DNA of 37,200 nt from contig NZ_JADWOV010000253.1 of NCBI RefSeq assembly GCF_015767435.1, positions 1 to 37,200 of the forward strand. Direction: 5' to 3'. A model generated the notes under the pieces. The model saw only the letters and a program-made list of their open reading frames with translations. It was not told the DNA's origin and did not search any database. The stretch is from Polaribacter sp. BAL334. Its GTDB lineage: Bacteria; Bacteroidota; Bacteroidia; Flavobacteriales; Flavobacteriaceae. A program made the translations under genes and the position numbers. Shown here piece by piece: positions 142 through 37,200 of this stretch (its first letter is position 1; every line of letters begins with the position of its first letter).

Positions 142-256
142 AAAATAGGCGAAATAGTAGTAAATTCGAGGCTTTTGGCTCGTATCAAAGTTTGTACTTA
201 ACCGAAAGTTTGGTGCTTCAAAATCGCCTACTTTTCATATACTAACCGTTAGCGGC
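121..256 (+). repeat. attC-like recombination site S4 (between cassettes 4 and 5)
   Basis: The left core is GTGCTACAAC (121-130) and the right core is GTTAGCGGC (248-256). The inner arms, about 134-151 and 224-241, are imperfect inverted repeats (TATATAAAAAATAGGCGA against TCGCCTACTTTTCATATA). The loop holds a small CGAG/CTCG stem near 167-182. The left core belongs to cassette 4's class and the right core to cassette 5's class, as expected for a site cut between the G and TT of the right core. It resembles integron attC architecture, although the cores do not follow the RYYYAAC/GTTRRRY consensus strictly. Confidence 0.7.
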
Positions 257-277
257 AATGTTAAGACGACATAGAAT

Positions 278-1126
278 ATGCAGAAATTAACATTTCAAAG
301 AAATAAGTACGGTAAGGAAATTCTTATTGACACGGTTCACACATCAGAGTTTGCCGTTGACAAAATGGAAGTGCTTCCTGATTTTTATACAATTGCATTT
401 CTGAAAAATTCATCGGGGACAATCAAAATAAATAATCAAACTATTTCGCTTGGCAAAAATGTAATCATCTTCATTCCTGTGTCTCAATTGGTAGACATCA
501 GTAAGGCTACTTTTAAAGACGGTTACTTTATTTTTTTCGAAGGAGAATTTTTGGACAAGTTTTTTAATGAGCAGAATTTTATTTTCAAGTTTTCATACTT
601 TCATAATACCGACAATCCACTTTATTTACAAATAGACAATCAAGAACAAGCCGGTATTTTTGACTTGTTTGAAGAAATACACAAAGAAATTAGAAACTTT
701 CAGCAAGATAGCGAACACCTAATTCGGGCTTATCTGTATCAGTTATTGATAAAGTTGAACCGCCTCTACACCAATTTGCATTTAAAATTAAATTCCAAAT
801 TGCTTACGAATGATTACCTATTAAAATTCCGTTACGCCTTAGAAAAAGACATAAAAAAGCACAATGATGTTCAATATTATGCAGATTTATTAGGAATTAG
901 TCGTACTTATCTAAACAAGCTTTGTTTAGATTTTTATGCTAAAACAAGCGTACAGATTATTAAGGAACGACTTGCATTGGAAGTAAAAAAAGAACTTTTA
1001 TACACTTCTAAAACCAATGCTGAAATTGCATACGAATACAATTTCTCCGACCCTCCAAACTTTACCCGCTTCTTTAAACAAATAACGTCTCAGACGCCAC
1101 AACAATTTAGAGAGTTGTCAAAATGA
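278..1126 (+). CDS. AraC-family transcriptional regulator
   Basis: A 282-residue protein whose last ~90 residues form the two helix-turn-helix motifs of the AraC/XylS DNA-binding domain. The first HTH lies near residues 197-217 (YYADLLGISRTYLNKL) and the second near 245-275 (AEIAYEYNFSDPPNFTRFF), followed by the typical TPQQFRE end. The N-terminal ~160 residues look like a cupin-type sensor domain, but no ligand can be named. The ATG lies 22 bases after the attC-like core, so this is the first gene of cassette 5. It points at the three-gene block beginning at 1202, which has its own -7 box, so local regulation is a reasonable inference. No promoter of the usual Bacteroidetes type was found upstream of it. 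Confidence 0.9.
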   Translation: MQKLTFQRNKYGKEILIDTVHTSEFAVDKMEVLPDFYTIAFLKNSSGTIKINNQTISLGKNVIIFIPVSQLVDISKATFKDGYFIFFEGEFLDKFFNEQNFIFKFSYFHNTDNPLYLQIDNQEQAGIFDLFEEIHKEIRNFQQDSEHLIRAYLYQLLIKLNRLYTNLHLKLNSKLLTNDYLLKFRYALEKDIKKHNDVQYYADLLGISRTYLNKLCLDFYAKTSVQIIKERLALEVKKELLYTSKTNAEIAYEYNFSDPPNFTRFFKQITSQTPQQFRELSK

Positions 1127-1170
1127 CAATAAATTTATTGTATTGATAATTTTCACTTTTTAGCCCATCA

Positions 1171-1178
1171 TAACTTTG
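1171..1178 (+). promoter_or_regulatory. -7 promoter element TAACTTTG for the ABM/MBL/SnoaL block
   Basis: TAACTTTG matches the Bacteroidetes -7 consensus TAnnTTTG and lies 23 bases before the ATG at 1202, giving a short leader. No TTTG stands at the ideal -33 spacing; the nearest TTG is about 25 bases upstream. A weak upstream box would suit an activated promoter under the adjacent AraC protein, but that is inference. Confidence 0.45.
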
Positions 1179-1201
1179 TTTAAAACTTAAAACAAAGAAA
1201 A

Positions 1202-1915
1202 ATGAAAAGGTTATTTATCACATTCAGCCTCTTGGTTTCGGGCTTCATCACGTATGCTCAATCGGTCAAATCTACTGCCAGCCCTATATTTGAAATAGCA
1301 GTACGCACAGTAAAGGAGGGAAAAAATGAAGATTTCGAGAAAGCAAGAAAAGCATTTATTGAAAAACTCACCAAAATAAATGGCGTATCCAACGACCGTG
1401 AGTTTCAGTCGTTCTATGCACTGCCTACACCCGACAAATTGCCTGTGTTTATAGGCATGACCGAGTACGAATCCAACGCCACACTAGGAGCCGTACAATC
1501 CAACAACGACCTGATGAGTAACTTCATGAGTTTTGCCCAGACTATGGACTTGAAGGCCTATGTATTTGTGCAGCCCATAGAAGGAGGAGAGTTTAATCTA
1601 GCAACATTGGCAAACAAACAAGGACAAATTTTGGAAATAGCTGTTCGCAGAGTAAAAGAAGGTCAGGAAGCAGAATTTGACAAAATGAGAAAAGCTTTCG
1701 TCGCCAAATTGGGCAAAGAAGACGGTGTTGTACAAAGCTGGGAATTTAAAGTAGTTGCCGGACAAAATACCGAAGGTTTAGCTGTTGGAATGACAGTTTA
1801 TGAAAACCAAGAAAAATTTCAGAAAATAGGTCAAGCTACCCAAACATGGGCAGAAAGTGCCTTCTTTGGAACGTTTGACCCGGTTGCTCTTCAATACGCC
1901 TATTCAGTTAAATGA
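1202..1915 (+). CDS. Secreted protein with two ABM-like (dimeric alpha/beta barrel) domains
   Basis: A 237-residue protein with a signal peptide (MKRLFITFSLLVSGFITYAQ, cleavage after about residue 20). Two homologous halves follow: one begins near residue 29 (FEIAVRTVKEG) and one near residue 143 (LEIAVRRVKEG). Both show the beta-strand/helix pattern of antibiotic-biosynthesis-monooxygenase or stress-responsive ferredoxin-like barrels. A fused tandem can mimic the usual dimer within one chain. The substrate is unknown. The next gene starts within its stop codon region (ATGA overlap), so the two are translationally linked. Base composition is unlike the core: bases 1441-1500 hold 31 G/C out of 60, which suggests recent acquisition. 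The fold call is from sequence pattern only. Confidence 0.7.
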   Translation: MKRLFITFSLLVSGFITYAQSVKSTASPIFEIAVRTVKEGKNEDFEKARKAFIEKLTKINGVSNDREFQSFYALPTPDKLPVFIGMTEYESNATLGAVQSNNDLMSNFMSFAQTMDLKAYVFVQPIEGGEFNLATLANKQGQILEIAVRRVKEGQEAEFDKMRKAFVAKLGKEDGVVQSWEFKVVAGQNTEGLAVGMTVYENQEKFQKIGQATQTWAESAFFGTFDPVALQYAYSVK

Positions 1916-2763
1916 AAATCCTAAAAAAATATAAAATGACAACACAAAATTCAACTTCAATAATCGTAAAAGATTTTAATGGGGTAAAAGTTCATACTTT
2001 TTTAGCACCATACGAAGCTGCGGCAAACGCAACGCACATTATCGAAACAGAAAACAAATTAGTTTTGCTAGATACCCACTTCTTAACGCCATTGGCACAA
2101 GCTTTCAAAGGATATGCCTTGTCGTTAAATAAACCAATTGACAGGATTTTTATTTCACACGGACACCCCGACCATTATTTCGGTTTGGCTTCGGCTTTCA
2201 GTGAATATCCAGCTTATACCCTAACAGGAATTGACAAAGTAATAGCTGAATGGGGTCCCCAAATGATTAAAAATCAGAAACCAATGTTTGGTGATTTAAT
2301 TCCAAATGAAGTTGTTGTGCCTTCACACACGCTTGAACCAAATACAGAAGAAGTTATTGATGGCTTAATCTATCAATATGAAATGGTAGAAGGTGCCGAG
2401 AGCGAAGCTCAACTATTAATAAAACTACCACAAATAGGTGTAATCGTTGTTCAGGATTTAGTTTACAGTGGGGTTCATTTATGGCTAGGCATGGGTTGGT
2501 TTGACAAATGGATTTCGGAGTTAGAAAATGTATTAAAAGCAGATGGATATAATTATATTTTAGCTGGGCATGGCTTGCCTTGTGGCAAAGATGAAGTGAT
2601 GAATTGTATTTACTATTTAAAAGTAGCCAAAGAATTATTTGCAAAAAAACCTTCTGCGGAAGAATTTAAAACTCAACTAATCGCAAAATATCCTTACAGA
2701 GAAAGTGCCATGATGTTTGATATGTATTTAGGGTTTTTGTTTGGTCAAATGGGTAGTCACTAA
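1912..2763 (+). CDS. Metallo-beta-lactamase-fold hydrolase
   Basis: A 283-residue MBL-fold protein with the metal-binding HxHxDH motif at residues 83-88 (HGHPDH), a preceding LLDTH strand near 52-56, a later Asp in VVQDLVYSG (about 180) and a His in LAGHGLPCG (about 219). These are the expected zinc ligands for a binuclear hydrolase. The first ATG overlaps the previous stop by four bases. A second ATG at 1936 (MTTQNSTS) is an equally good start and avoids the lysine-rich leader. There is no signal peptide, so it is probably cytoplasmic. Related proteins act on many substrates (lactones, thioesters, beta-lactams), and nothing here fixes which. It is cotranscribed with its neighbours on both sides. 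Confidence 0.88.
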   Translation: MKILKKYKMTTQNSTSIIVKDFNGVKVHTFLAPYEAAANATHIIETENKLVLLDTHFLTPLAQAFKGYALSLNKPIDRIFISHGHPDHYFGLASAFSEYPAYTLTGIDKVIAEWGPQMIKNQKPMFGDLIPNEVVVPSHTLEPNTEEVIDGLIYQYEMVEGAESEAQLLIKLPQIGVIVVQDLVYSGVHLWLGMGWFDKWISELENVLKADGYNYILAGHGLPCGKDEVMNCIYYLKVAKELFAKKPSAEEFKTQLIAKYPYRESAMMFDMYLGFLFGQMGSH

Positions 2764-2775
2764 AGTGTAAAAATT

Positions 2776-3183
2776 ATGGTAGAAAGACACAAAGAAATAG
2801 CGAGATACATTTCGCAAAAAGTAGTCAATGAAAAGGACTACACTGCCATTGAAGAATATTTAACAGACAATTATGTTTATCATGGACTAGGAGGATTTAT
2901 TGCTAAAACGCCTCAGGGTTTTATGGAAGCAATCAAAGGTTTTCATTCAGCAATCCCGGATTTGCAATCTGAAATTATTGACATTGTTGGGGAGGGCGAC
3001 CGCTTGGTGATTCGATTCAATTTTACAGGTACGCATAAAGGAGATTTTTTGGGTTTTCCTGCAAGCGGTGCAAAGCTAAAGTTTGAAGGAATTATAATGA
3101 GAAGGTTTGAAAACGAAAAGGTTGCAGAGGACTGGGACTATTTTGATTTTCCAACTGTTGTTGCACAAATTCAATCACACTAG
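2776..3183 (+). CDS. SnoaL-like ester cyclase / NTF2-fold protein
   Basis: A 135-residue protein with the SnoaL-like pattern: an N-terminal helix (ARYISQKVVNEKDYTAIEEYLTDNYVYHG), the FHSAIPDLQSEIIDIVGEGDRLVIRF strand region (about 55-80), FTGTHKGDFLGFPASG (about 82-97), and a C-terminal EDWDYFD segment. The family includes polyketide cyclases and many small enzymes of unknown substrate. It starts 12 bases after the MBL gene and is followed by a terminator at 3214-3244, so it closes the transcription unit of cassette 5. Together with the ABM and MBL proteins it suggests chemistry on a small organic, perhaps polyketide-like or xenobiotic, molecule. That reading is inference. Confidence 0.85.
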   Translation: MVERHKEIARYISQKVVNEKDYTAIEEYLTDNYVYHGLGGFIAKTPQGFMEAIKGFHSAIPDLQSEIIDIVGEGDRLVIRFNFTGTHKGDFLGFPASGAKLKFEGIIMRRFENEKVAEDWDYFDFPTVVAQIQSH

Positions 3184-3213
3184 ACCAGATAATTTAACCA
3201 TACACAATAAATC

Positions 3214-3244
3214 AAGCCGTTCTATTTTTGGGACGGCTTTTTTA
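3214..3244 (+). terminator. Rho-independent terminator of cassette-5 genes
   Basis: AAGCCGTT (3214-3221) pairs with GACGGCTT (3232-3239) around a 10-base loop and is followed by a run of T to 3243. It lies about 30 bases after the SnoaL-like gene and before the half attC-like site. Confidence 0.8.
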
Positions 3245-3259
3245 ATGACAAGAAACACT

Positions 3260-3268
3260 GCCGCTAAC
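3260..3268 (+). repeat. Half attC-like site S5, left core only (end of cassette 5)
   Basis: GCCGCTAAC is complementary to the GTTAGCGGC that opens cassette 5 at 248-256, so it is the matching cassette end. It also forms a tight hairpin, CCGCT-AAC-AGCGG (3261-3273). I could not find a right arm or right core downstream, so the array appears to be broken or eroded here. Confidence 0.55.
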
Positions 3269-3571
3269 AGCGGTAACTGTTGCACAACCACTTCAAAAAA
3301 CTATCCAGACGCTTAAAAATCAAAATAAGTATAAAAATAACCTTGTTTAGTGCTTTTTAAGCGAGGTTTATTTTTGGAATAGAGTTGGTTTTTCTAAAAA
3401 AGGAGAGGCTTAAAATGAGGCTTTTCGCCTTTAATAAGAATACGTTTTAAGTCTGTTAAAACCTCAAACGTATTATAATAATTAATTATATCAAATTAAA
3501 TTCATTTGCTATTACTAATTTTAATACATAAAACTGATTATATATCCTAAGAAATTTGAAATGTATAAAAC

Positions 3572-33632: not shown

Positions 33633-33902
33633 CATTCCGAAGTATTTTTATAACGTTCCGTCACATTATTGATACGTTCCGCCACATTGTTGACACGTTC
33701 CGCTACATTGTTGATACGTTCCGCTAGCGGAACGCACCATTACGATGACGGAACGTACCATTACGATGACGGAACGTACCATTACGATGGCGGAACGTAT
33801 CATTACGATGACGGAACGTACCATTACGATGGCGGAACGTATCAATAATGTGACGGAACGTACCATTAAGATGGCGGAACGTATCATTACGATGGCGGAA
33901 TG
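33633..33902. repeat. Inverted array of 21-bp repeats around a palindrome
   Basis: The motif CGGAACG recurs at 33728, 33749, 33770, 33791, 33812, 33833, 33854, 33875 and (as CGGAATG) 33896. In inverse orientation it recurs at 33717, 33696, 33675, 33654 and (as CATTCCG) 33633. Spacing is exactly 21 bases throughout each arm. The centre is the 18-bp palindrome CGTTCCGCTAGCGGAACG (33717-33734). A 31-base stretch, 33654-33684, is an exact reverse complement of 33830-33860. Confidence 0.92.
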
Positions 33903-34081
33903 TATCATTACGACAATAACAAGAAGTATTAAGATGATGACAAGAGGCATCAATTAGGTGCAAAATATAAATCATTAAAAAATATCATTTTATTTTACTC
34001 CGTTAACCAACTTTTTATGATTGTTTTTATATATTGTGATGGAATATGTGGGCTACTATTTTTTGTAAAAAGTTACATAAA

Positions 34082-34107
34082 GTTGCGCATATAAACTAGT
34101 TGGGTTT
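34082..34107 (+). repeat. Right arm of attC-like site S0, start of cassette 1
   Basis: GTTGCGCATATAAACTAG followed by the right core GTTGGGTTT (34099-34107), which fits GTTRRRY. It is complementary to the AAACCCAAC that ends cassette 1 (34877-34885). A left half is not clear; ACCAACTTTTTATGATTG (about 34007-34024) is a weak candidate. It may be an eroded attC or an attI-like primary site. Confidence 0.5.
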
Positions 34108-34148
34108 AATTATGAAATTCGATAAAATAAGAAAGAAAAAAAAATAGA

Positions 34149-34878
34149 ATGAACTTACAATACTATTCATATAAAGAAGATAAAGTTTATGAATATAATT
34201 CTAATATAGTTTCAAAAATATTGGAGAAAAAAAATAGTTTTGACTTTACATCAAAATTTGAATTATCTATCGTTAAAGAAACTACTTCTCTACATATTTA
34301 TAGAATTGAAAATAATTACCATTTAAGTTTAATCGAGTTTAATGAAAAATCGCAAGAAAGAACTGGAATTAAAATTGAAAATTTAGGAATAGTCAATAAT
34401 TTCATAGATAATTACATAAATGAATTAGATTTTAAAGTAACTAAAAATTCTATTGAAAAATATAGCATTGTAAAAGATAAAGAAGATAAAGAGAAATTCA
34501 AAAAGTGGAAAATTGAATATGAAAAAAAGAGAGAAAAAGAAAAATTTGACTTTTTAAAACCTATTTTATTAACATTAGGAATTATTTTTATTTTTGGAAT
34601 TTCTTTTTACTATTGGAATTCAGAGGAGTATAAATTTATTTTTAGTAAAAATGATTTTGTAAAAGCAGAAATAATTGATATAAAGATGGTTCATATTGGA
34701 AAAGGTTATTATTACAAAAAAATTAATATTTGAATATGAATTTGAAAACAAAAAATTTAAAAGTGAAAAAACAGTTGGAAAAAGAGTTGGAAGAAAACAA
34801 ATTGGAGATTTTCTAAAATTAAAAATATCTACAGAAAATCCTGAAAGAAATAAAGTAGTAGGTTATTATAATAACTAA
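34149..34878 (+). pseudogene. Cassette-1 membrane protein, frameshifted at an A7 run
   Basis: Two overlapping frames, 34149-34733 (194 residues) and 34696-34878, read as one protein if one base is skipped in the run of seven A at 34716-34722. The join then reads HIGKGYYYKK then LIFEYEFENKKF. The N-terminal half is soluble and charged, with a single membrane helix near residues 137-155 (PILLTLGIIFIFGISFYYW). The C-terminal AEIIDIKMVHIGKG... plus beta strands and KLKISTENPERNKVVGYY resembles a DUF3592-like extracytoplasmic domain. The break could be inactivation, a sequencing error in a homopolymer or transcriptional slippage. The gene ends inside the attC-like left core, as cassette genes often do. 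Confidence 0.7.
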
Positions 34879-35013
34879 ACCCAACACTGTGTATAAAAAA
34901 TTGCTACTTTTAGCTTTACCAAAGTTTGTTGCTCTTTTGCCAACTTCAGAATTTCCGTTGGAAATTCCTCGTTGTCAAAACCGCAACTTTCTTTATACAA
35001 AAACGTTATGGGC
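34879..35013 (+). repeat. attC-like site S1 (cassettes 1/2)
   Basis: The left core ACCCAAC (34879-34885) fits RYYYAAC and the right core is GTTATGGGC (35005-35013). Inner arms GTATAAAAAATTGC and GCAACTTTCTTTATAC pair. The loop carries GAATTTCC-GTT-GGAAATTC, an eight-base stem. The right core matches the end of cassette 2 (GCCCATAAC), not that of cassette 1. Confidence 0.7.
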
Positions 35014-35032
35014 AACCTAAAAACAGACAGTA

Positions 35033-35923
35033 ATGGCGACAGACGGAGTAAAAATAATTGACGGAGACACTGCCCACGACACTTACTGGGGAATTATGGA
35101 TTTGTATGATAGTGGTGCGGATTTTGACTCCATAAACAAAGAATTTCCTCTTATTCAAACTGACTATTTTGACGAATTCGACAACGAAATTTATGTTACT
35201 TCTTGTGCATTGGCAATTTGGGAAATTGGACAAATGACAGATGACAAATTAGTTTTTGTAAAGTCAATTATCGACAAAGGTGTTTGTGTTAAAGAATGGG
35301 CAGAACTAAATGAAAAGGAAGGTAAAGCAAGACAAAAAGAACTTGATAAATTTTGGAAAAAAATAAGTCAATCCAATACTAAAATAAGGGCAAGAAAAAA
35401 GTATAGAAAAATAACTAACTTTTATTTCCAACCAAACGACTTATTAACTTTTCAACTTAAAGACGGAAATTATAGGGCAGTGATTTGTTCAACAATTACC
35501 CAATATAGAGGTCAATGCAATTATATTTTGGTTCCCACAACTTACAATTCAAACAAAAAACCGACAGTTGAGGATTTAAAAGACAAAGAAATATTAGGCA
35601 GACAAATAGGTAGCGGATATGACCAACAAATAACAAGAGAAATGCAACCAGGAATCGAAAGAATTTGGAATTTATCAGGAGGCAACTGTAATTTCTTTTT
35701 TGGAGTAATTCAGCACGCTGTAGACCATAAAGACTTCGTTAAGTTCAAGGACAAATTTGAAAAAGTTGGTACTTTAAAAATAGTAGAAGGACTAAAAAAA
35801 ATGGGGTCATTTGGTTATGAAGTAAACTTCGAAAGGTTTGAGAGTATTTTTGGTGATTTAGAAAATCAAATAAAAATATTTCAACAAAAAAAGTATCCCG
35901 TTAAAATATTATGCGAATTATGA
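35033..35923 (+). CDS. Cassette-2 protein with Imm26-like C-terminal region
   Basis: A 296-residue soluble protein with no signal peptide or membrane segment. The N-terminal half (about 1-110) is acidic and helical (WGIMDLYDSGADFDSI, DEIYVTSCALAIWEIG). After a basic linker (KIRARKKYRK) the sequence FYFQPNDLLTFQLKDGNYRAVI (about 127-148) resembles the start of Imm26-type immunity proteins. I do not recognise the whole protein. It is the sole gene of its cassette and ends 15 bases before the next attC-like core. Cassette genes of this sort are often adaptive or defensive, but no function is assigned. Confidence 0.75.
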   Translation: MATDGVKIIDGDTAHDTYWGIMDLYDSGADFDSINKEFPLIQTDYFDEFDNEIYVTSCALAIWEIGQMTDDKLVFVKSIIDKGVCVKEWAELNEKEGKARQKELDKFWKKISQSNTKIRARKKYRKITNFYFQPNDLLTFQLKDGNYRAVICSTITQYRGQCNYILVPTTYNSNKKPTVEDLKDKEILGRQIGSGYDQQITREMQPGIERIWNLSGGNCNFFFGVIQHAVDHKDFVKFKDKFEKVGTLKIVEGLKKMGSFGYEVNFERFESIFGDLENQIKIFQQKKYPVKILCEL

Positions 35924-35937
35924 CAGAAGAAAAGGCA

Positions 35938-36074
35938 GCCCATAACACCGTATATAATTTATTGCTAGTTCTGGCTTGCTTACGAAAATCCTCACGGATT
36001 TTCTATTCGGTTTGTATTTGCTAAATTAGGTGCTTAAAACACGCAACAAATCATATACAACAACGTTGTAGCAC
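35938..36074 (+). repeat. attC-like site S2 (cassettes 2/3)
   Basis: The left core GCCCATAAC (35938-35946) and right core GTTGTAGCAC (36065-36074) flank inner arms ACCGTATATAATTTATTGC and GCAACAAATCATATAC. The apical hairpin is GAAAATCC-TCAC-GGATTTTC (35984-36003). Total length is 137 bases. Most of the interior is shared with S3. Confidence 0.78.
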
Positions 36075-36126
36075 ATTTGACGCAACCATTTGTATATTTA
36101 TGTATCTTACTAAAAAACATCTTATT

Positions 36127-36597
36127 ATGAAAAAACTATTTTTACTTATTTTTAGCTCATTATTTTTCAATGTAGCCATAGCTCAAACTAATGCTATAAA
36201 AATCACTAACATCAATACTAACAAAGAAAAAATCATTAAAGAGAATAAAAGAATAAAGCTAAAAACATTTGATGGTCGAAAAATTAAAGGCCGATTTAAG
36301 ATTGAAAATAATAGTACAATTATTATTGATAATGTCCGAATAAATTTGTCTGATATTGATGCATTAAAACGGAATCCCCTTTTGACTTCCATTTTTACTT
36401 CTGGATTTCTTATTTATGGTGGAGCTATAACAGCTGGATTTGGTGTTTTAATTGGTGTATTAGTTGATTCAACAGCTTTTTGGCTGACTATTCCAGCAGC
36501 TGGAATGATTTATACTGGAATAAAATCACCAAATTTTAATAAAAATCATAAAACAGATAAAGGATGGAAATTTGAAATCATAACAATATCTGATTAA
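36127..36597 (+). CDS. Cassette-3 secreted or membrane hypothetical protein
   Basis: About 156 residues from the ATG at 36127 (MKKLFLLIFSSLFFNVAIAQ, a signal peptide); an upstream in-frame ATG at 36100 would add nine residues before it. Next come a lysine-rich beta region with LKTFDGRKIKGRFKIENNSTIIIDNVRINLSDIDAL and one or two hydrophobic helices (TSGFLIYGGAITAGFGVLIGVLV, AFWLTIPAAGMIYTGI). A short basic tail with WKFEI ends the protein. The family is common in Bacteroidetes but has no known function. The stop codon is three bases from the attC-like left core. Confidence 0.8.
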   Translation: MKKLFLLIFSSLFFNVAIAQTNAIKITNINTNKEKIIKENKRIKLKTFDGRKIKGRFKIENNSTIIIDNVRINLSDIDALKRNPLLTSIFTSGFLIYGGAITAGFGVLIGVLVDSTAFWLTIPAAGMIYTGIKSPNFNKNHKTDKGWKFEIITISD

Positions 36598-36600
36598 AAC

Positions 36601-36738
36601 GTGCTACAACACCGTATAAAATTAATTGCTAGTTCTAGCCTACTTACGAAAATCCGCAAGGATTTTCTATCTGTGATTTATTTGCTAACTTTAGTACTTG
36701 AACCACGCAACTAATCTTATACAATCACGTTGTAGCAC
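36601..36738 (+). repeat. attC-like site S3 (cassettes 3/4)
   Basis: The left core GTGCTACAAC (36601-36610) and right core GTTGTAGCAC (36729-36738) are perfectly complementary. Inner arms are ACCGTATAAAATTAATTGC and GCAACTAATCTTATAC, and the apical hairpin is GAAAATCC-GCAA-GGATTTTC. It has the same length class as S2 (138 bases) and is strongly similar to it. Confidence 0.8.
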
Positions 36739-36752
36739 ATTAAAAATGACCT

Positions 36753-37175
36753 ATGAAACAGATATTAACTAATGTAGTTTTAATTATTTCAGTACTTGGA
36801 CTTCTTGTCTCTTGTGACCGACCAGATTGCAATAATACAAATCTGATTTTTGAAAACAACTTACCAGATTCAAAGATATATAAGGACGAATTAGTCAAGC
36901 GACTAAATTATATTGACCAAGCAAAACTGACTTATTGGCTTCAAAAGTATGACGAGCAAAATGGAAAAGAATCCTTATACTTTCATATCCAAGGTGATGG
37001 ATTATGTGCTATTCTTCATTTAACCATTAATAATTGGAATAAATTAGAAAATGTTAGAAAAAGAAAAGGAGTTGGTCGTCGAGGAGCAGAATTTACAAAT
37101 TTGAAATTTAAAATTGTTAAAGATTCAATATCAACTGAATTTATATATAAAACATTTGATAGAATAATAGACTAA
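36753..37175 (+). CDS. Cassette-4 small lipoprotein
   Basis: A 140-residue protein with a lipoprotein signal MKQILTNVVLIISVLGLLVSC (Cys21 in LLVSC). A short acidic mature domain follows with LVKRLNYIDQAKLTYWLQKYDEQNG, SLYFHIQGDGLCAILHLTINNW, and a basic RKRKGVGRRG stretch. No family can be named. It starts 15 bases after the attC-like right core and ends eight bases before the next left core, making it a compact single-gene cassette. Its last 116 bases are repeated at the start of the window because the contig closes here. Confidence 0.8.
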   Translation: MKQILTNVVLIISVLGLLVSCDRPDCNNTNLIFENNLPDSKIYKDELVKRLNYIDQAKLTYWLQKYDEQNGKESLYFHIQGDGLCAILHLTINNWNKLENVRKRKGVGRRGAEFTNLKFKIVKDSISTEFIYKTFDRIID

Positions 37176-37200
37176 AAACGTGCTACAACAATGTATATAA
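37060..37200. repeat. Terminal direct repeat, right copy (contig closure)
   Basis: Identical to bases 1-141. See the left copy. If the overlap is removed, the circle is 37,059 bp and the attC-like site S4 is continuous across the join. Confidence 0.95.

Follow-up and report, generated by a model that had tools for sequence, protein, structure and literature searches.

The stretch of DNA that was analyzed (the window) is the whole of contig C171, 37,200 nucleotides (nt) long, of the genome of Polaribacter sp. BAL334, a member of the genus Polaribacter. It carries an array of gene cassettes, with an attI-like sequence at its start and attC-like sites between the cassettes. The array is likely the product of a tyrosine recombinase related to the integron integrase IntI, which would have inserted circular cassettes site-specifically; the gene for such an enzyme is present in many relatives and was not found in the BAL334 assembly. 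The window is best read as one array, integrase-less as assembled, that belongs to a widespread system resembling the integron but using a noncanonical integrase; judged from its sequence anatomy, the system would be an integron. Where genomes have to be told apart, we use the labels of the analysis: G000 for the BAL334 genome, other G numbers for relatives, and C and L numbers for contigs and loci.

Cassette barcodes and folded sites

A preliminary description of the window had proposed five cassettes with matching ends, and all five proved to match exactly: the start of each cassette and the reverse complement of its own end agree over 8 to 9 bases (TT plus 6 to 7). The matched ends lie at 34100-34885 (cassette 1), 35006-35946 (cassette 2), 36066-36610 (cassette 3), 36730-37189 (cassette 4), and 249-3268 (cassette 5). 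Among the 45,250 GTT/AAC pairs located 300 to 4,000 bases apart in the window, the six bases beside the cores matched in 36 (0.08%), the five cassettes included. A larger set was drawn from 31 sources, namely, the BAL334 genome and chosen relatives, which gave 179 site matches. One 80-base match was left out and 178 were used; after eight without a readable core had been dropped, the remaining 170 sites formed 143 neighboring pairs, some of which, where the run is short, may span a site that went undetected. In these 143 cassettes, the bases following the GTT of the start were the reverse complement of the bases preceding the AAC of the end at 6.54 of 7 positions, versus 2.66 of 7 for other pairs, and none of 2,000 permutations reached this agreement. 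As in integrons, the two ends of a cassette would complete one site in the circle: the exact run after GTT was at least six bases long in 127 of the 143 cassettes, and in 5 of 5 in the window. Some of the 143 are copies of one another; the 94 distinct start/end pairs had a mean run of 6.06. Beyond the seventh base, the listing of the 143 cassettes commonly showed one mismatch (A versus G) followed by two further matching bases. Since there were 69 different six-base starts among the 143 cassettes, these barcodes, as we call them, are not one shared consensus. The outer arm is a cassette-specific barcode of 6 to 7 bases instead of the RYYYAAC/GTTRRRY consensus, from which, according to the preliminary description, the cores of the second and later sites depart; the privacy of the barcodes could be the reason that these arrays escape searches with patterns of the core consensus. 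Many short cassettes (313 to 378 bases), several of them with the same barcode, were seen within one array in G013 (L117 and L118).

The two barcodes that meet inside a site of an array agreed at 2.94 of 7 positions (170 sites), near the 2.66 of unrelated pairs. Because the ends of one cassette match and the arms within array sites do not, the exchange point falls between barcode and site interior, in the shared GTT. A cut at G|TT had been claimed; its placement within the GTT stands, and the exact cut is indistinguishable inside the shared G-T-T. Searching relatives for the interiors of the second and third sites, as had been proposed, turned up interiors of the second site (S2) up to ~95% alike in congeners, with matches that stop at or near the cores. 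Likeness of this order over ~125 bases is long enough for homologous exchange, and cassette 1 carries a different site interior in G188; both would suit a spread of gene blocks in which repeated hairpins between genes recombine homologously, with no dedicated recombinase. We consider this highly improbable. The barcodes track the cassette rather than the site, so that exchange ends at the GTT, and copies of the attI-like sequence, presented below, join cassettes that lack a left-hand site.

The window holds four attC-like sites on the + strand: S1 (34883-35007; AAC...CGTT), S2 (35944-36067), S3 (36608-36731), and S4, the site of cassette 4 (128-250), which is read at the contig start. Common to all four are AACAMYGTRTAWAA on one side and TATACWA..CGTT on the other. 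A pattern built from them matched four times in the window and not once in 100 shuffles; in 59 genomes searched, it matched in 26 (BAL334 included), with 25 of 36 matching within the genus, and the reversed pattern matched in none. Fold z scores (top/bottom strand) were -3.1/-4.0 for S1, -1.5/-2.0 for S2, -4.3/-4.9 for S3, and -2.6/-2.2 for S4. The inverted cores and folding arms described earlier were thus recovered in four sites, except that the folding of S2 taken by itself is unexceptional; its outer arms in the array come from different cassettes. Using our own covariance models (R1 and R2) to detect sites, we obtained 28 matches at E <= 0.1 in the BAL334 genome with the model from the four window sites, 22 of them at E <= 2.3e-8. 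Many lie close to contig ends, which is expected if arrays break assembly. With a second model, for which up to 19 candidates per genome were scored, sites were found in 160 of 166 genus genomes. No match of the sites was found in Rfam at gathering scores. Across 150 sites, a 14-pair stem was formed in 96.0% of cells, 12 of the 14 pairs had changed on both sides, and 0 of 500 shuffles were comparable; slid controls, in an alignment itself fitted to this stem, gave none near the observed pairing. The sites have the attC-type features of AAC/GTT cores, paired arms, and folding on one strand. When the 143 cassettes were folded, the circle form (own end plus own start) was the more stable one in 129 and equaled the array form in 9, the outer arm was paired in 137 versus 32, and the bottom strand was more stable than the top strand in 139. 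From this we infer that selection acts on the hairpin of the free circular cassette.

The attI-like sequence and cassette movement

The left end of the array is an attI-like sequence (GCGCATATAAACTAG|TT) at 34067-34099 on the + strand, which had escaped the preliminary description; it reads AAAAAGTTACATAAAGTTGCGCATATAAACTAG and is followed directly, at G|TT, by the start of cassette 1, TTGGGTTTA. A 31-base query made from it (<= 3 mismatches) found eight copies in the BAL334 genome, five in the sister genome G006, and one in G074, with none in the other 163 genomes and none for a reversed-pattern control. Behind each of the eight BAL334 copies stands a cassette whose two ends match each other, a different one each time (one is shown by the end match alone); besides the window, the copies lie on contigs C235, C230, C229, C245 (at 316098 and 313482), and C215 (two). 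A matching cassette end is also present at the copy in G074. The last bases of the attI-like sequence of the window resemble the integrase-linked junctions, ATATAAC.AG, of relatives. C171 and C235 match as far as the TT core and have different cassettes after it. A 463-base stretch that includes tandem repeats and the attI-like sequence is common to the two at 85.5%, and on C235 the same attI-like sequence is followed by TTGTAGCAC, which is the start of cassette 4; this second copy of cassette 4, at C235:81298-81769, is 99% identical to that of the window.

Scattered array starts also occur in other relatives. Of 16 further loci, 8 have an attI-like, barcode-matched array start far from the enzyme gene (three in G003, two in G021, and one each in G016, G029, and G020), and among these genomes G021, G003, and G016 have the enzyme. 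In G016, the scattered copy at L222 reads, by eye, as the 3' end of an integrase gene plus attI, and it looks as if attI had spread there through duplication of the integrase tail. An attI as the first junction of an array, as in integrons, was found in the window, at the seven other BAL334 copies, and at 13 of 17 integrase loci chosen from relatives.

Empty or rearranged arrays, which the preliminary description had suggested looking for, were found in the few relatives compared, an outcome that favors the earlier interpretation. The PBP1 gene that neighbors the array has no array beside it in G006 (the nearest relative by PBP1, 87% identical) or in G009 (60%). Cassette 1 recurs in G188 (82%) with the same barcode and with other neighboring cassettes, and cassette 4 stands at a second attI, as described above. 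In G164 and G104 (cassette 3 gene) and in G009 (cassette 1 gene), the genes have no intact site adjoining them; in G024, the right-hand site of the cassette 3 gene looks decayed and a site is present on the left. These are relics or settled copies.

A recombinase family at the heads of arrays

The array had been described as lacking an integrase, and none was found beside an array in the BAL334 genome; in relatives, an integrase gene is present next to arrays. A search for the integron-integrase family gave no match over the cutoff in the 166 genus genomes (scored per stretch), and it returned many tyrosine recombinases of ~390 amino acids (aa) with 107 to 142 bits in the best stretch. Seventeen loci of such recombinases were chosen for study, several of them because sites were nearby. 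At 13 of the 17, a barcode-matched junction ending in an attI-like sequence lies 28 to 168 nt behind the recombinase stop; the motif ATATAAC.AG precedes the TT in 11 of these 13, and variants of it occur in G005 and G027. The locus in G027 (L114) and one in G080 (L126) represent other branches of the family with differing first junctions, which read ATATAAACAAG|TT at L114 and are without the attI motif at L126.

Using a profile of the 17 members (best E < 1e-60), which separates the family from XerC/XerD, we found the family in 117 of 166 genus genomes, with broken copies counted as present in this split of 117 and 49. A search of the lineage for an integron-type tyrosine recombinase, one of the checks proposed earlier, thus yielded a related family. 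At least 19 sites were present in 64 of the 117 genomes with the family versus 5 of the 49 without it (Fisher P = 3.8e-8, in related genomes that are not independent). In a sample of the phylum, the family was present at E 1e-60 in 115 of 395 Bacteroidota genomes and in 76 of 170 genera, and the genus site model found sites in the ~1.5-kb flanks of 17 of 29 loci from this search (15 of 27 outside the genus). At one locus (L150), a site lies upstream of the recombinase gene. One family member, on a Chryseobacterium plasmid with weak sites downstream, is annotated "site-specific tyrosine recombinase/integron integrase," and S3-like sequences occur on Tenacibaculum, Persicobacter, and Flagellimonas plasmids. 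From the position of its gene, we infer that the specificity of the family enzyme matches these sites. BAL334 would have lost its integrase gene, or the gene would lie in an assembly gap. The BAL334 genome has XerC and XerD, and a degraded tyrosine recombinase fragment containing a stop was seen in it on C108 (L069, 1945-2055).

The array might also be a canonical integron remnant, that is, a cluster of standard attC sites lacking an integron integrase (CALIN) moved by an ordinary IntI elsewhere, on a plasmid or a phage, with the Bacteroidota recombinase as a bystander. The sites have the architecture of attC, the family enzyme was not found in BAL334, and in a published assay IntI1 recombined one of two attC of a Polaribacter phage (PMC9892861). 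We nevertheless judge this origin improbable. Nothing exceeded the integron-integrase cutoff in the genus genomes, it is the other recombinase family that has the attI-like junctions behind its gene and whose presence goes with site number, and S3 had no match in the phage collection.

Several results weigh against an integron-like system served by this family. Exact runs were shorter than six bases in 16 of the 143 cassettes. Behind the five attI copies in G006, no matching cassette end was found within 1.5 kb (two have a site downstream); other arrays or sites of BAL334 were seen without an attI copy, some of them cut by contig ends; and 8 of the 16 further loci in relatives have no attI-like array start. 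Four of the 17 recombinase loci, several of which were chosen for nearby sites, have no attI-like, barcode-matched junction: L126 has a junction lacking the motif, L120 has no junction, and at L119 and L121 the models detect no site in the stretch examined downstream. Of the 49 genus genomes that lack the enzyme, 45 have sites as well, and the profile search detected no family enzyme in the BAL334 genome (99.93% complete) or in its sister G006. As for the protein, five of five enzymes scored 196 to 229 bits with the integron-integrase model TIGR02249 and missed its cutoff of 265 (the XerC and XerD of BAL334 scored 100 and 133), and two of the five exceeded the cutoff of the archaeal XerA model NF040815. 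The IntI-specific insert is missing: 58 to 59 residues separate KDR from HxLRH, versus 100 in 10 of 10 IntI proteins, all IntI1-like, and 66 in the XerD of BAL334 (the spacing was measurable in 11 of the 17 genus rows and in 7 further ones, 5 of them outside the genus).

The IntI-specific additional domain, called defining for IntI in a paper on archaeal integrons (PMC9668308), is judged absent on the basis of this spacing, of the finding of no insertion of IntI-domain size between KDR and HxLRH in the 17 aligned rows, and of a match to the solved IntI4 structure 2a3v that breaks at the insert position. Because of the missing insert and the scores below the TIGR02249 cutoff, the recombinase is not filed as IntI. 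It has a tyrosine recombinase domain with HxLRH and the catalytic tyrosine (alignment of 17; Pfam PF00589 in 5 of 5) and a C terminus with SPLD/SPFD-like motifs, as in IntI, and its best NCBIfam match in 5 of 5 is NF040815, whose product name includes "integron integrase." In a tree with only two Xer rows and IntI1-like rows, the family split from the Xer rows at 100/98, and the position of IntI inside the set was weak (93/70, 89/70). The integrase gene of an integron is usually opposite in direction to its cassettes. Here, the recombinase gene and the cassettes run in the same direction at the loci showing both; a reverse gene direction is described for typical Spirochaetota (PMC9668308).

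The likeness to XerA, together with the presence of XerC and XerD rather than the family enzyme in BAL334, would be in line with modules driven by the chromosomal Xer pair, like the pdif modules of plasmids. This, too, seems very doubtful, since the sites are folded stems of ~125 bases with covarying arms, unlike the short dif-like sites, and their numbers follow the other recombinase, whose gene precedes an attI-like junction.

The N-terminal ~85 residues of the family matched no Pfam family over the cutoff. HARP (PF07443) matched 4 of 16 members at E <= 10 (best, 5.9e-5 and 23.0 bits versus a cutoff of 25) and none of 10 members that the phylum search had supplied, at E <= 0.1. The best fold matches of this domain alone, all of them weak, include the N-terminal part of XPB and the HARP domain of SMARCAL1. 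Domains of the HARP/XPB type bind DNA structures such as forks. We hypothesize that the N-terminal domain takes over the role of the IntI insert in reading the folded site.

Cassette contents, proposed mechanism, and known systems

All of the cassettes of the window are on the + strand. Cassette 1 and its site (34100-35005; ends TTGGGTTTA...TAAACCCAAC) contain open reading frames (ORFs) at 34149-34733 and 34696-34878, cassette 2 and its site (35006-36065) an ORF at 35033-35923 (296 aa), and cassette 3 and its site (36066-36729) an ORF at 36100-36597 (165 aa); none of these ORFs matched a Pfam family. Cassette 4 (36730-37200) reaches the contig end and has an ORF at 36753-37175, the 140-aa product of which has, by eye, a lipoprotein-like N terminus and matches DUF6686 weakly, under the cutoff. 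Cassette 5 (249-3268; ends TTAGCGGCA...TGCCGCTAAC) holds four ORFs, assigned with Pfam to an AraC-type regulator (278-1126), a weak ABM match (1202-1915), a metallo-beta-lactamase fold (1912-2763), and a SnoaL-like protein (2776-3183). It had been described as crossing a contig join. Its two own ends do match, and both lie inside the contig; the "join" is an identity of 141 bases between the contig ends (1-141 and 37060-37200). This identity resembles an assembly loop, which may be an artifact of the repeated cassette 4 rather than a true circle, and the adjacency of cassettes 4 and 5 is uncertain because cassette 4 is present also on C235. Behind the right end of cassette 5 (3260-3268), our site models found no site. 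Instead, the end lies in a 184-base element at 3242-3425 (+ strand) that is unlike the S1-S4 type; an 89.7% identical copy, with an AAC core and no usual site, ends another BAL334 cassette on C245 (L323, 2336-2516), and this shared element is a second kind of array end. Between the PBP1 gene and the attI-like sequence are 21-base tandem repeats (33653-33913; no strand assigned), which are present also in the C235 copy, near a RecG-like gene (named by eye).

The barcodes, the covarying stem, the attI copies with their different cassettes, the recombinase family with its barcode-matched junctions, and the cassettes present at multiple places were computed directly, and they suggest the following mechanism. 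Recombination of two sites at the shared GTT would release a cassette as a circle, in which the cassette ends would meet and the 7-base barcode of the end would pair with that of the start, completing a single-strand hairpin that is predicted to be more stable on the bottom strand. An active enzyme with the predicted extra N-terminal DNA-binding domain would recognize the hairpin, and insertion would follow at the G|TT either of an attI beside the enzyme's own gene or of one of the scattered chromosomal copies. It is about an even bet that the Bacteroidota have a cassette-capture machine of their own, in which the folded site is read by an IntI-like recombinase that has no IntI insert and uses a HARP/XPB-like DNA-structure domain instead, cassettes carry private self-pairing barcodes, and one gene feeds many arrays through scattered attI copies; the classical integron integrases may have arisen from this insert-less stock or alongside it. 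Complete integrons are described as very rare in Bacteroidetes, with one case in a published survey (PMC9024848). If active, the present system, given the numbers of sampled phylum genomes with the family and of genus genomes with sites, would be a large, apparently unlisted reservoir of mobile genes, some of them plasmid linked. The family also tests the rule that the IntI insert is required for recombining folded single-stranded sites, which it would do without the insert. In the open-access full-text literature, with closed papers and preprints outside its scope, our search turned up nothing that describes this recombinase family together with arrays in Flavobacteriaceae.

With the sedentary chromosomal integrons (IntI/attI/attC), the system shares an array whose cassettes all point one way, folded sites that resemble attC and have AAC/GTT cores, an attI-like start, and, in relatives, an IntI-related recombinase at the head of the array. 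It differs from them in that the recombinase is without the IntI insert, carries an additional N-terminal domain, and is encoded in the same direction as the cassettes; in that the outer arm is a barcode of 6 to 7 bases rather than RYYYAAC/GTTRRRY; and in that there are several attI-like copies per genome. Among the Bacteroidetes, published cases comprise intI genes of the Bacteroidetes/Chlorobi group (PMC2426708), a single complete integron, that of Salinibacter ruber, along with earlier In0 elements (PMC9024848), and attC-like sites of a Polaribacter phage (PMC9892861). Like the CALIN-type clusters described in PMC9024848 and PMC8618304, the window array has no adjoining integrase; unlike them, its start is an attI-like sequence that recurs at other BAL334 arrays. 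Insertion at attG (PMC12901181), in which cassettes enter scattered non-attI sites, likewise places cassettes distant from the integrase gene, whereas the scattered targets here are copies of one attI-like sequence of ~30 bases. Finally, the recombinase resembles XerC/XerD and archaeal XerA in having no insert between KDR and HxLRH and in its best NCBIfam match, and it differs from XerC/XerD in its IntI-like C terminus and in TIGR02249 scores well above those of the Xer pair of BAL334.

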